From Elusimicrobiota bacterium (lineage in GTDB: Bacteria > Elusimicrobiota > Elusimicrobia > UBA1565 > UBA9628), in contig JACRNU010000069.1 in assembly GCA_016234805.1 (NCBI GenBank), forward strand, positions 62,001-126,000: a stretch of DNA of 64,000 bases, read 5' to 3'. This document shows positions 47,548-63,984 of this stretch, one piece after another. The notes below the pieces were generated by a model. That model did no database searches. It was not told the DNA's origin and saw only the letters and a list, made by a program, of their open reading frames with translations. The translations under genes were made by a program, and so were the position numbers. Every line of letters starts with the position of its first letter. Position 1 is the stretch's first letter.

Positions 47548-47659
47548 CCCTGGTCCCTCCTAACTCTCTTCGACCAACCATTCCTCGATCGACCGCCGCC
47601 GGGTGTCCCTGAGATGTCACAGACTCTCCCAAGGTTTGGTATCCTTTTCCCCTGATTCC

Positions 47660-49873
47660 ATGAACCCGCAGCCCAAAGCCTCATCATCCGCGGCCCGCCT
47701 CTCGGATGTCTGGGGAGGACTGGCCGCCATGCTCGTGGCCCTGCCGCAGGCCCTGGCTTTCGGCGTGGCCATCTTCAGCCCCTTGGGGCCCGAACGCGCG
47801 GCTGAAGGCGCGGTCGCGGGCTTCATCGGAGCGTCAAGCCTCGGCATCCTCGCGGCCCTCTTCGGAGGCGCGCCCAGGCTCATCTCGACCCCCTGCGCTC
47901 CGGCCGCGGCGGTCATGGGAGCGCTCGCCGCGCGCCTCGTGGTGTCCCAGCCCCCGGGGCAGGTCGTGCTCCTGCTCACCGTGGCCGCCCTCATCTGCGG
48001 CGGCCTCCAGATGTCCTTTGGCGCCGTGGGCGGGGGCAGGCTCATTAAGTACATCCCCTACCCCGTGGTCACGGGCTACCTCAGCGGGGTCGCGATCCTC
48101 ATCTTCCTCGGCCAAGCCCCGAAGCTCTTGGTCCTGCCCAAAGGCATGGACCTCTGGCACGGCCTCCTCCATCCCTCGGTCTGGAGCGGCCCAGGGCTCA
48201 TCGTGGGCGCGGCCGCCATCGCGAGCATGGCCCTGGCCCCCCTGCTCACCGAGGCCGTGCCAGGCCCGGTCATCGGGCTCTCAGCCGGGATCGCGGCGTA
48301 CTGGACCGCGTCCGTGTTCTGGCCGGAGCTGAAGGTTCTGGAGCACAACGCCGTGGTGGTGGGCTCCCTGCCGGGCGCCGGAGGGGGATTGTGGGCATCC
48401 CTGGCGGAGCGTTGGACTTCGGTCAAAGCCCTGAGCACGGGCCAGCTCAAGGAAGTGCTCATGCCGGCTGCCACGCTCTCCATCCTGCTCTCCGTGGACA
48501 CGCTCAAGACCTGCGTGGTGGTCGACGCCCTGACCCGCTCGCGCCACGACTCGGACCGCACCCTCCTCGGCCAGGGCGTCGGCAACTTCACCTCGGCGCT
48601 CTTGGGCGGGGTGCCAGGGGCCGGCGCCATGGGCCCGACCCTCGTCAACGTCAACTCAGGCGGCCGCACGCGCCTGTCCGGGGTCCTCGCGGGGTCCTTC
48701 GCCCTGCTGGCCTTCCTCATCGCCCGGCCCCTCATGGCCTGGATCCCGGTCCCGGCCCTGGCCGGCATCCTCATCGTGGTGGCCTGGCGCATGTTCGACC
48801 GCAAGAGCCTGGCTCTCCTGCGCAAGCGCTCCACGGTCTTCGATTTCGCGGTGAGCGCCACGGTCATCGCAGTCGCCGTCACCGTGGACCTCATCGCGGC
48901 CGCGGGCGCGGGCCTGGCCTTGGCGGCCCTGCTGTTCATCCGGGACCTCATGCGGGGCTCGGTCATCCGGCGCAAGATCTATGGGGACCACATCTCCTCG
49001 CGCCAGAGGCGGCTGCCCGCGGAGCGGGAGAGCCTCAAGGAACTCTCCTCCCAGGTCGTGGTCTGCGAGCTGCAAGGCAGCCTCTTCTTCGGCACCACGG
49101 ACCAGCTCTTCACCGAGCTCGAGGCGGACCTCAAGACCCGGCGCTTCCTCATCCTGGACCTCAAGCATGTCCAGAGCGTGGACTTCACCGCGGTGCACAT
49201 GCTCAAGCAGGTCGAGGACCGCCTGCACGCCAAGCGCGGGCGCCTCATCCTCTGCGACCTGCCCCACTCCCTGCCCAGCGGCCGGGACCTCGAGGAATAC
49301 TTCAACGAAGTGGGCCTGGTCAAGGCCAAGCGCTTCGTGAGCATCTTCGGCGAGCTCGACGCGGCCCTTGAGTGGGCCGAGGACCGCCTCCTCGAGGAGG
49401 CGGGCAAGCTCGAACCCCACTCCCCCATCCCGCTCGAGCTCCACGAGATCGACATCATGCGCGGGATGGAAGCCGACGCGCTCGCCGCGTTCCACTCCAT
49501 CCTCCGGGAGGCCTCCTTCGAGACGGGCCAGCGCCTGTTCTCCCGCAACGACTCGGGCGACGAGATGTTCCTCATCCGCCGGGGCCAGGTGCGGATCATC
49601 CTGCCGCTCGACGGCGGCAAGGGGCACCACATCGCGACCCTGGGCAGGTCGGACTTCTTCGGGGAGGTCGCGTTCCTCGACCGCGGCCTGCGCAGCGCCG
49701 ATGCCGTGGCCATCTCCCCGACCATGGTCTACGCCATGTCGCGCGCCAAGTTCGACGAGTTCTCCCGCTCGAGGCCGGACCTCGGGGCCATGCTCTTCGC
49801 GCGCATCGCACGCGCTCTGGCCATGCGGCTGAGGATGGCGGACGAAGAGCTCAGAGCCCTACAAGAGGCCTAA
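47660..49873 (+). CDS. SulP-family transporter fused to STAS and cyclic-nucleotide-binding-like domains
   Basis: MNPQPKASSSAARLSDVWGGLAAMLVALPQALAFGVA...TPCAPAAAVMGALAAR; STAS LILDLKHVQSVDFTAVHMLKQVEDRL; CNB RLFSRNDSGDEMFLIRRGQVRIILPL...LGRSDFFGEVAFLDRGLRSADAVA. Confidence 0.92.
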   Translation: MNPQPKASSSAARLSDVWGGLAAMLVALPQALAFGVAIFSPLGPERAAEGAVAGFIGASSLGILAALFGGAPRLISTPCAPAAAVMGALAARLVVSQPPGQVVLLLTVAALICGGLQMSFGAVGGGRLIKYIPYPVVTGYLSGVAILIFLGQAPKLLVLPKGMDLWHGLLHPSVWSGPGLIVGAAAIASMALAPLLTEAVPGPVIGLSAGIAAYWTASVFWPELKVLEHNAVVVGSLPGAGGGLWASLAERWTSVKALSTGQLKEVLMPAATLSILLSVDTLKTCVVVDALTRSRHDSDRTLLGQGVGNFTSALLGGVPGAGAMGPTLVNVNSGGRTRLSGVLAGSFALLAFLIARPLMAWIPVPALAGILIVVAWRMFDRKSLALLRKRSTVFDFAVSATVIAVAVTVDLIAAAGAGLALAALLFIRDLMRGSVIRRKIYGDHISSRQRRLPAERESLKELSSQVVVCELQGSLFFGTTDQLFTELEADLKTRRFLILDLKHVQSVDFTAVHMLKQVEDRLHAKRGRLILCDLPHSLPSGRDLEEYFNEVGLVKAKRFVSIFGELDAALEWAEDRLLEEAGKLEPHSPIPLELHEIDIMRGMEADALAAFHSILREASFETGQRLFSRNDSGDEMFLIRRGQVRIILPLDGGKGHHIATLGRSDFFGEVAFLDRGLRSADAVAISPTMVYAMSRAKFDEFSRSRPDLGAMLFARIARALAMRLRMADEELRALQEA

Positions 49874-50426: not shown

Positions 50427-50574
50427 TCGGGAGCATCATAACAAAAACCGGGCCCCAGGACTCGTCGGACCATGCGAGCCCGAAGGTCCCTCCTGGAGCC
50501 AGGCCCCCTGCCGTGAACGCGGTTCCCCAAAGCCCCAACCGATTCCGAGCCCCGGGCGCCATACTATAGCGCGC

Positions 50575-51720
50575 ATGAAGACCGCATCCATTGGCCGTAT
50601 GTTCCGGGCTCCAGCCAGGCTGTTGGCAGCCCTGCTGGCCGCCGGCCTCCTGCAGCAGGCCCAGGCCGCCGGCGCCAGGGTCCAGTCCAGGGTCAGCCTC
50701 CCGACACCGGCCGCGGGCAGCGTCGCGGCCCCGGCTTCCGTCCTGACGCTCTCGGACCCGGCCTCCCTCTCCCCCCTGTTCCTGCCAACAGCTCCCTTAC
50801 TGGTCTCAGCCCCTGGGATCATCGCCGCACCCGGCATCATCGCTGCCCCGGCCGGACTCCCCCTGCTCCCGGCCCTCATCCCGCGGACGCAGGCCCCGGA
50901 ACTCGGCTCCCGCTCCGCCCTCGTTTCGCGGGTCCAGGACAACGTGGACCGCCAGGTTTCAGCCATGGGAGAAGTCCTGAAAGGACATCACGGCGGCCTG
51001 CTGGATTCCGTGTCGCGGAACGCGCACGCCCTTCTCGACGACATCCAGGGCCGCATCGACGCCGGGGACATCGACCCGTCCCTCTCATCGGATAACCGTC
51101 CCGTGAAAGTCGGGATCTACCCCGTGACCGCGGACCCCTTCCACTGGGGGCACCTCCTCATCGGCCTGCAGGCGATCGGCACCCTGGGGCTCGACAAGGT
51201 GGTCTTCGTCCTGGCCGGAGACGACCCCCGCAAGCCCACCTTGACGAAGACGGACCTCCGCCACCCCATGGGCCAGGCCGTGCTGGCCGCCTTCGCCCCA
51301 TTCTTCGAGTACTCGCCTATCGCCATCGGCACCGATCTCGACGGGGAGACGAACATGTTCCGCCTCCTCGCCTTGAACCTCGGCCGGAAGGTGCACGCCT
51401 TCTACCTCGTGGGCGCGGACCACTACAAGCTCACGGACAAGAACGGCGACCCGGACACCCTGCCCAAGATCGAAGCCAACATGGTTCGGCCGGACCTCGG
51501 GTTCGACCCTCTGCGGCACGCCATCAGCGTGGCCTTCATCGAGCGCGACGAGCGCGGCCCTTCGGTGCCCACGGGGCTCGACGTCCGGTTCCTGCCCGCC
51601 TTGCCCTTCGACGCCTCCTCGACCAAGGCCCGGGCCGGCCACTTCGGCCTGATGCCCTACGACGCCTACCGCTGGGTCCTCGACCGGGGCCTCGGCCTCT
51701 ACGGCATCCCCAAGAACTAA
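50575..51720 (+). CDS. Predicted exported NadD-like nucleotidyltransferase
   Basis: Signal peptide MKTASIGRMFRAPARLLAALLAAGLLQQAQAAG; KVGIYPVTADPFHWGHLLIGLQAI (HxGH), VFVLAGDDPRKP, FYLVGADHYK, DASSTKARAG (SSTxxR). Confidence 0.85.
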   Translation: MKTASIGRMFRAPARLLAALLAAGLLQQAQAAGARVQSRVSLPTPAAGSVAAPASVLTLSDPASLSPLFLPTAPLLVSAPGIIAAPGIIAAPAGLPLLPALIPRTQAPELGSRSALVSRVQDNVDRQVSAMGEVLKGHHGGLLDSVSRNAHALLDDIQGRIDAGDIDPSLSSDNRPVKVGIYPVTADPFHWGHLLIGLQAIGTLGLDKVVFVLAGDDPRKPTLTKTDLRHPMGQAVLAAFAPFFEYSPIAIGTDLDGETNMFRLLALNLGRKVHAFYLVGADHYKLTDKNGDPDTLPKIEANMVRPDLGFDPLRHAISVAFIERDERGPSVPTGLDVRFLPALPFDASSTKARAGHFGLMPYDAYRWVLDRGLGLYGIPKN

Positions 51721-62433: not shown

Positions 62434-63984
62434 ATGCCATCTTTGCGCGTTGCCGGCATACTCGTCTTTTTGGCCGCCCCCTCGGCCTCGGCCGCTGTGC
62501 TCAGGTCCAGCCCTGCCAAAGCCCCGGTCCTCATCCCGAGCCTCGGCGCACCAGCGATCACCCGTTCCCCTCTCTCTGGTTTTCAATTCTCCGGACCCGC
62601 CCTCGGAGCTCCCGGCGCCATCTCCTGGGACGGCAGTCCATCCCTCCCCTCTCTGAAGCCCATTCCGGTCCTGTCCTCTCCGCAGTCCGCGCCGAGCCCG
62701 ATCAGGTCCGAGTCCCGAAGCGTCCGGGATTTCATGGACGCCCTCTCCCGACCCGTACCGGGAACGACCCCCTCAGTGGCGGAAGGCTCTGACCGCAGGG
62801 GGATGGAGTCCCTGCACCAGGACAGCTCTGCCCTCTTTGACGGCCTCGAGAAGCAGAAAGGCTCGGTGGACGCCCAAGAGGACGACGGGGATATCACGCG
62901 AGGCTGGGCCCCTGGGAAGCTGCGCAGCCAGGCCGACGGAGCCGTCCTGACCTACCGCTCGCGCAAATCCCAGGGCCCGTCCAGCAACTCCCCCATCGTG
63001 TTCATCGGCGGCCTGGCCTTGGCGGAGAGCTTCGACTCCTACTTCAAGACCCAGGCGCCCTCCTCGGACGAATATTTCCTGTGGCTGCGCGGCCATCAGC
63101 CTTCGGCCTGGACCGCGACCCGGGAGGTCTACGACAGCGACGGCCGCGACATGGCGGCCATGATCGTGGAAGCGGCCCGGTCCTCCGGCTCGGGCCAGGT
63201 CCGGCTCGTGGCCCACTCCTACGGGGTCCTGGTGTTCCAGCGCATGCTCCAGCTCTCGCGCTTCCCCGAGGTGCGCCAGGCCCTGAACCTGCTCAAAGGC
63301 GGCCGGGTGACCCTTCTTAACGTGACCACGCACTACGGCGACAGCGAGACCGCGGGCGGGGACCAATACGCCCAGATGGCCAGGATCATCCGGGCCTTCA
63401 TCTCCTGGCTCGACATGATGGACAGCCAGGCCGCGCTCATGCGCAGGTCCATGGAGCTTAACCCGGCTCTTGCGCCGGCCATCATCCCCGCGCTCATGGC
63501 CTGGGAGATCCAGCGGACGCAGGCCCTCTCCATGGCCTCGCAGGGCGCGGTCAAAGAGCTCAAGGGGCACCTGGCCCAACGCTGGGACCCCCCGATCGAT
63601 GCCGTGCGGCGCCGCCTCCTCAAGGTCATCGGCCGCAACTCCTCGGACCCTGGCTGGCAGGAGGCCTTCCTGCGCCGCGCCAACGACACCTCCAAGCTGG
63701 AATTCACCAAGACCGACGCGGAGCGCCTCCGGACGCTTGGCATCGGACTCGACCTCATCCACTCCAAGGACGACCAGCTCATCCCCTGGGTGAGCGCCAA
63801 GCTCCTCTTCGACCTTCTCGCAGTCCCCACCCCGGACAAGGCGCCCGGAGCCGGCTCTTCCTTCGAATCCGCCGACGGCCTGTTCCGCGCCAAGGTGGTG
63901 GACGGCGACCACTACTTCCCCCTGCGCAAGCCCGCGGAGTTCGCGGACCTCCTGGCGCCGCGACCTGCCCTCGACCGGCCATGA
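62434..63984 (+). CDS. Predicted exported alpha/beta hydrolase
   Basis: Signal peptide MPSLRVAGILVFLAAPSASAA; Pro/Ser-rich leader; PIVFIGGLALAES, VRLVAHSYGVLVFQRML, HSKDDQLIPW. Confidence 0.8.
   Translation: MPSLRVAGILVFLAAPSASAAVLRSSPAKAPVLIPSLGAPAITRSPLSGFQFSGPALGAPGAISWDGSPSLPSLKPIPVLSSPQSAPSPIRSESRSVRDFMDALSRPVPGTTPSVAEGSDRRGMESLHQDSSALFDGLEKQKGSVDAQEDDGDITRGWAPGKLRSQADGAVLTYRSRKSQGPSSNSPIVFIGGLALAESFDSYFKTQAPSSDEYFLWLRGHQPSAWTATREVYDSDGRDMAAMIVEAARSSGSGQVRLVAHSYGVLVFQRMLQLSRFPEVRQALNLLKGGRVTLLNVTTHYGDSETAGGDQYAQMARIIRAFISWLDMMDSQAALMRRSMELNPALAPAIIPALMAWEIQRTQALSMASQGAVKELKGHLAQRWDPPIDAVRRRLLKVIGRNSSDPGWQEAFLRRANDTSKLEFTKTDAERLRTLGIGLDLIHSKDDQLIPWVSAKLLFDLLAVPTPDKAPGAGSSFESADGLFRAKVVDGDHYFPLRKPAEFADLLAPRPALDRP

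Follow-up and report, generated by a model that had tools for sequence, protein, structure and literature searches.

A conserved protein of NadD fold in an Elusimicrobiota bacterium, predicted to be an exported nucleotidyltransferase distinct from NadD

Nucleotidyl transfer of the kind performed by NadD is regarded as a cytoplasmic reaction, since NTPs are cytoplasmic, and the active site of CDP-alcohol phosphatidyltransferases is normally cytosolic. Here, we examined a window (i.e., the whole stretch of DNA analysed, 64,000 nt) from Elusimicrobiota bacterium GCA_016234805.1 (contig JACRNU010000069.1, 62,001-126,000 of the forward strand), in which the ORF at 50575-51720 (+) encodes a protein of 381 aa, hereafter P0001. 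Its order is a signal-peptide-like N-terminus, a disordered Ala/Pro/Leu-rich leader of ~70 aa and a nucleotidyltransferase domain of NadD fold with intact catalytic motifs. We propose, with a probability of about 0.58, that P0001 is an exported nucleotidyltransferase, distinct from NadD, belonging to a larger exported set that shares its leader. Our literature search brought up no account of this leader class, of an exported NadD or of an exported PPK2 in these bacteria, which does not by itself prove their absence. The features needed below are the following:

50562..50567, + strand: -10-like hexamer TACTAT, read from the sequence, 7 nt 5' of the ATG
50575..50670, + strand: predicted signal peptide (MKTASIGRMFRAPARLLAALLAAGLLQQAQAA), with n, h and c regions by inspection and a helix at residues 13-31 in the model
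50671..50889, + strand: Ala/Pro/Leu/Ser-rich leader, nearly charge-free and disordered (pLDDT <50, residues 33-99)
50905..51060, + strand: two conserved helices within residues 111-162, predicted by AlphaFold2 with high confidence (113-135 and 140-162)
51103..51717, + strand: NadD-like nucleotidyltransferase core, residues 177-381 (PF01467, profile-profile comparison, Foldseek)
51142..51153, + strand: HxGH-type motif HWGH, H190-H193 (H193 in 24/24 sequences; position 190 is H, Q or T)
51229..51237, + strand: R219-K220-P221, counterpart of the phosphate-binding Lys region (PPHK) of NadD (R and K in 24/24, P in 23/24)
51613..51633, + strand: ISSTxxR-type motif ASSTKAR, aligned with the NadD motif (S348 and R353 in 24/24)
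62434..63984, + strand: second leader-class protein of the window, with an alpha/beta-hydrolase-like body (AHSYG motif by eye) and no mature Cys

The ORF, its N-terminus, the leader and the PFHWGH and ASSTKAR motifs all lie where a first-pass annotation of this DNA had placed them. Signal peptides were called by a crude rule and by eye; a signal-peptide-like N-terminus followed by the leader is present, in the same order, in 21/21 aligned full-length family members (P0001 counted), so that no ortholog among them lacks the leader, an outcome the first-pass annotation had named as one that would count against export. Across these orthologs the length and composition of the leader are kept and its sequence is not. 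The GC content at codon position 3 is 0.81-0.84 in the leader region vs 0.64 upstream of the ATG. An alternative start near 51080, raised in the same annotation, was rejected after examination, as it would remove conserved and confidently predicted structure, namely both leading helices, which are part of the fold and precede the classical nucleotidyltransferase core, together with L154, I157, G164, I166 and D167; these residues and P168, in or just after the helix pair, are invariant or nearly so. We accept the annotated start because of the leader in all 21 members, the -10 spacing and a fold that begins upstream of 51080.

The TACTAT hexamer of the focal gene is a 4/6 match, below the strict -10 criterion. 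Among orthologs, a -10-like hexamer (TATAAT, TATACT, TATAGT, TACAAT) often ends 6 nt before the ATG, and a strict match at such spacing was found in 6/22 family members and 8/20 leader genes vs 0.7% of 13,977 sampled ATGs. With a box at this distance, transcription would begin at the A of the ATG or close to it. The focal gene is probably transcribed without a 5' UTR, giving a leaderless or near-leaderless transcript. Judging by the TATAAT-like boxes ~6 nt 5' of the focal gene and of many leader genes, leaderless mRNAs appear to be frequent in this class.

An AlphaFold2 model of P0001, built from a 30-sequence family alignment, places a helix at residues 13-31, leaves residues 33-99 at pLDDT <50 and predicts a core of residues ~111-381 mostly above 90. 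In a Foldseek search against the PDB, the top 50 matches were all NadD (best E 9.5e-8; TM-score to target mostly 0.7-0.78), and the family profile matched canonical NadD in profile-profile comparison with a probability of 98.4 (E 4e-15). Scores against curated models fell below their cut-offs: 18.6 bits on PF01467 (gathering score 21, which L059, a relative without a signal peptide, passes at 23.5), 21.7 bits on TIGR00482 (cut-off 112.45) and 37.6 on the best NCBIfam model (cut-off 150). Conservation of motifs was counted over 24 sequences from several phyla. The catalytic set of the PF01467 superfamily (H193, K220, S348 and R353) is invariant, S349 and T350 are kept in 21 and 22 of the sequences, respectively, and R219-K220-P221 falls on the PxxK of NadD in the profile alignment. 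The N-terminal motif reads PVTADPFHWGH, GG[TS]F being replaced by PV[TA]A in the family. The HxGH motif reported earlier is present as HWGH; in the family its second His is invariant and its first varies (H, Q or T). A Trp after iGxD, in the nicotinate-site region, is invariant in four canonical NadD and is not retained in the focal family.

Following the earlier suggestion to search for a separate cytosolic nadD, we found a canonical one in the same genome as a NadD-HD fusion (G000:C42, TIGR00482 122.7 bits), and the idea that P0001 is the sole NadD of the organism was rejected. Genomes with deltaproteobacterial or Omnitrophota members of the family encode a canonical NadD above cut-off in 5/6 cases. 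Judged from its sequence, the P0001 family is distinct from NadD and not a NadD ortholog, because it scores far below the cut-offs and lacks both the GG[TS]F and the Trp determinant. Of the NadD-like exported enzyme first annotated here, export and fold are supported, and identity with NadD is not. NaMN is a poor substrate guess given the loss of the Trp and the GG[TS]F loop, and we lean towards P0001 not being a NaMN adenylyltransferase. Conservation of the catalytic residues suggests that P0001 is probably an active enzyme; nucleotidyl transfer is the best guess for its reaction because the NadD fold is kept along with the catalytic His, Lys, SST and Arg.

Cysteine composition bears on the location of the protein. 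Leader-bearing members of the nucleotidyltransferase family have no mature Cys at all, the five that encode one Cys carrying it inside the signal peptide, while 9 and 7 are present in two deltaproteobacterial relatives that lack a signal peptide. Pooled over the leader class described below, we counted 9 mature Cys in 11,754 residues (0.08%), significantly fewer than in ORFs without a signal-peptide-like start (1.22%, p ~1e-11) or in other ORFs with such a start (0.86%, p ~1e-8). Leader-bearing PPK2 proteins from three genomes likewise contain no Cys vs 1-6 in the cytosolic tandem PPK2. In the window, plain signal-peptide proteins are also Cys-poor (0.43% vs ~1.05% in other proteins), indicating that Cys loss tracks export in this genome. 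We found two Thioredoxin_4 (DsbA-like) proteins and no VKOR. Cys content played no part in selecting the leader class. It lends independent support to the predicted export of P0001 and is, in our view, the strongest evidence on location; P0001 is likely extracytoplasmic.

The leader is not peculiar to the P0001 gene and is common to unrelated bodies. We sampled 1.09 Mb of the 3.42-Mb genome (794 ORFs) and selected the class by composition, after it had been noticed: an automatic filter flagged 23 ORFs, from which four likely transmembrane or truncated false positives were removed and to which one was added by eye, leaving 20 (~2.5%), or ~60 per genome by extrapolation. Their bodies include, by Pfam, PPK2, two MFS proteins, a subtilase, PD-(D/E)XK, a CAAX protease, M48, a LonB-like AAA+ with Lon_C and a beta-helix, and, by eye only, a further MFS-like protein, an alpha/beta hydrolase and a kinase-like fold. 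A Pfam search with the protein at 62434..63984 gave no match. The leaders are positively biased (51 Lys+Arg vs 18 Asp+Glu over residues 23-82) and mostly of modest hydrophobicity (0.7-1.6, P0001 reaching 1.8). The signature of a leader with Cys depletion is a simple way of listing other members.

The PPK2 with signal peptide and leader (L095:11109-12386 (+), with counterparts at L164 and L161) is a single-domain protein kept in relatives, has no mature Cys and matches Pfam along its length (249 bits); the genome also encodes a cytosolic tandem PPK2. Several genomes that have the nucleotidyltransferase lack this leader-bearing PPK2. The Lon-type AAA+ protease (L114:15309-18782 (+), 1,158 aa) has a signal peptide, the leader and no Cys past residue 30, and three MFS-type proteins (L089:5623-7485 (+), L088:16394-18847 (-) and L096:13551-15953 (+)) carry a signal peptide and a long leader before the membrane domain. 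By simple hydropathy and charge count, the L089 protein has Lys/Arg-rich loops on the leader side; in the leader-bearing MFS proteins and in a fused phosphatidyltransferase described below, the normally cytosolic side appears to face the side of the leader. Either the leader does not export these proteins, or they are inserted the other way round, or the compartment is an unusual one, and this orientation is the main weakness of a simple export reading. Similar leader proteins occur in a relative (G030), including one of 2,716 aa with a leader, ClpB-type AAA+ and M50-like matches and 2 Cys (L201:7278-15425 (+)). In G014, a relative of 50% GC without the nucleotidyltransferase, a neutral gene caller returned a few leader candidates and a GC-tuned caller missed most genes, so that the apparent lack of the class under the latter is no fair comparison.

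The nucleotidyltransferase core was found in 28/295 genomes of the phylum. Twenty-three belong to the focal order, where it is stand-alone or fused once, and the gene is accessory, as G001 of the same genus is without it. The other five belong to other families of the class or phylum and encode the core within open frames of 2,632-8,434 aa (L230-L234, L241-L247, from G138, G170, G262, G091 and G128; one with a GGDEF domain). All five are Cys-poor (0.12-0.21%), and in three, whose N-terminus is readable, the chain opens with a signal-peptide-like stretch. In G170 (by Pfam) and at L061 (by eye), the domain is followed by a metallophosphoesterase-like stretch. In one genus of the focal order (g5; L010:832-3030 (+) and L013:709-2898 (-)), an Ala/Pro-rich linker connects the nucleotidyltransferase with a CDP-alcohol phosphatidyltransferase (PF01066), an arrangement reminiscent of bifunctional cytidylyltransferase-phosphatidyltransferases; that this is the only PssA was rejected, as both genomes have a normal one. 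This fusion hints at CDP-alcohol chemistry and the putative exported PPK2 hints at a nucleotide supply; neither is proof. Gene neighbourhood gave no general operon clue, since flanking genes differ in nearly every ortholog, and there was no PHROG match that would point to phage origin. Upstream in the window, 47603-49873 (+) encodes a SulP-like transporter that, by eye, seems to have C-terminal STAS and cyclic-nucleotide-binding-like domains. At L059:583-3441 (-), in a deltaproteobacterial MAG, PPK2 and Ppx/GppA lie ~4.4 kb from a family member that has no signal peptide.

Other explanations were weighed against export of an active enzyme. P0001 could be a cytosolic enzyme tethered to the membrane: the hydrophobic helix and parts of the leader would anchor it, for instance as a hairpin, and its catalytic domain would remain inside with ATP. 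ATP-linked members of the leader class (PPK2, Lon-type AAA+), the loops of the L089 protein, the phosphatidyltransferase of the fusion and the weakly hydrophobic stretch in some leaders, including that of P0001, would fit such an arrangement; we consider it unlikely, as it hardly accounts for the near-total Cys loss in soluble bodies, most leaders are too polar or proline-rich for a second membrane span, and subtilase, M48 and beta-helix bodies are typical of exported proteins. It is also improbable that P0001 is exported as a NadD-derived ligand-binding or structural module that is no longer a nucleotidyltransferase. Such a loss of function would be in line with the change of GG[TS]F to PV[TA]A, the variable first His, the sub-threshold PF01467 score and the expected scarcity of ATP outside the cytoplasm; yet little or no variation is seen at the second His, the Lys, the SST or the Arg, as under catalytic constraint, and CoaD is an active enzyme with Thr in place of the first His.

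That P0001 is simply a cytosolic NadD paralog whose start was wrongly assigned and whose leader is not translated is largely refuted. In-frame upstream extensions are common in high-GC genomes and a downstream start is imaginable, but the universal leader, the -10 spacing to the upstream ATG, the helices before 51080, the raised position-3 GC in the leader and the canonical NadD elsewhere in the genome all speak for the longer protein. We find it very unlikely that proteins of the leader class are passed to another cell, or to a nucleotide-containing internal compartment, and meet ATP there. This would explain why cytosol-type enzymes and membrane proteins all sit behind one kind of leader, and the domain recurs in giant ORFs of other Elusimicrobiota and of Omnitrophota, the latter tied to predation or symbiosis (PMC10066038). 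However, our analysis turned up neither a delivery system nor a compartment, proteins of ordinary periplasmic type are among the bodies, and the Cys loss fits a plain oxidising periplasm too.

Under the preferred reading, an exported nucleotidyltransferase, P0001 would leave the cytoplasm by the Sec route, directed by its signal peptide, and the disordered Ala/Pro-rich leader would tether or space the enzyme in a cysteine-hostile extracytoplasmic compartment. There it would most likely use an NTP to nucleotidylate a phosphorylated small molecule or other acceptor, and the co-exported PPK2 could supply the NTP from polyphosphate. A search for an ATP/ADP translocase as extracytoplasmic nucleotide source returned only a marginal 55-aa match. 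A broader and doubtful extension is that the lineage sets apart a whole group of proteins for export, recognisable by a signal peptide, by an Ala/Pro/Leu leader that is positively biased and poor in acidic residues, and by near-complete Cys loss. Makers and users of nucleotides (PPK2, the NadD-like nucleotidyltransferase, AAA+ proteins) would be part of it, in an extracytoplasmic compartment that uses nucleotides and draws on polyphosphate; the leader would act as a bipartite sorting signal, and the giant ORFs of sister lineages would be fused versions of these functions. A conserved, Cys-free, putatively exported enzyme of NadD fold, together with an exported PPK2 and ATP-linked domains, makes a testable case that a lineage runs nucleotide chemistry outside the cytoplasm.

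Compared with described systems, P0001 shares with NadD (TIGR00482; PDB 3e27 and 1kam) the fold, the HxGH-type motif with its invariant second His, the Lys of PPHK, VGxD, SSTxxR and the C-terminal GLYG. It differs in having its own signal peptide and leader, the extra helix pair at 111-162 and no mature cysteine, in the loss of GG[TS]F, in a DHY...DTLPK segment in place of the NadD Trp, and in scoring ~22 bits against a 112-bit cut-off. With the CTP_transf_like superfamily at large (PF01467, including CoaD and the cytidylyltransferases) it has the core motifs in common; its Pfam score stays below threshold, and the nearest solved structures are NadD, not cytidylyltransferases. Omnitrophota are known for giant multi-domain ORFs (PMC10066038), and we found homologous nucleotidyltransferase domains within Omnitrophota frames >3,000 aa. 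In the focal order, by contrast, the domain forms a stand-alone, predicted exported protein of 350-450 aa, fused in one genus only, and the Omnitrophota giants are less cysteine-poor (0.4-0.85%).
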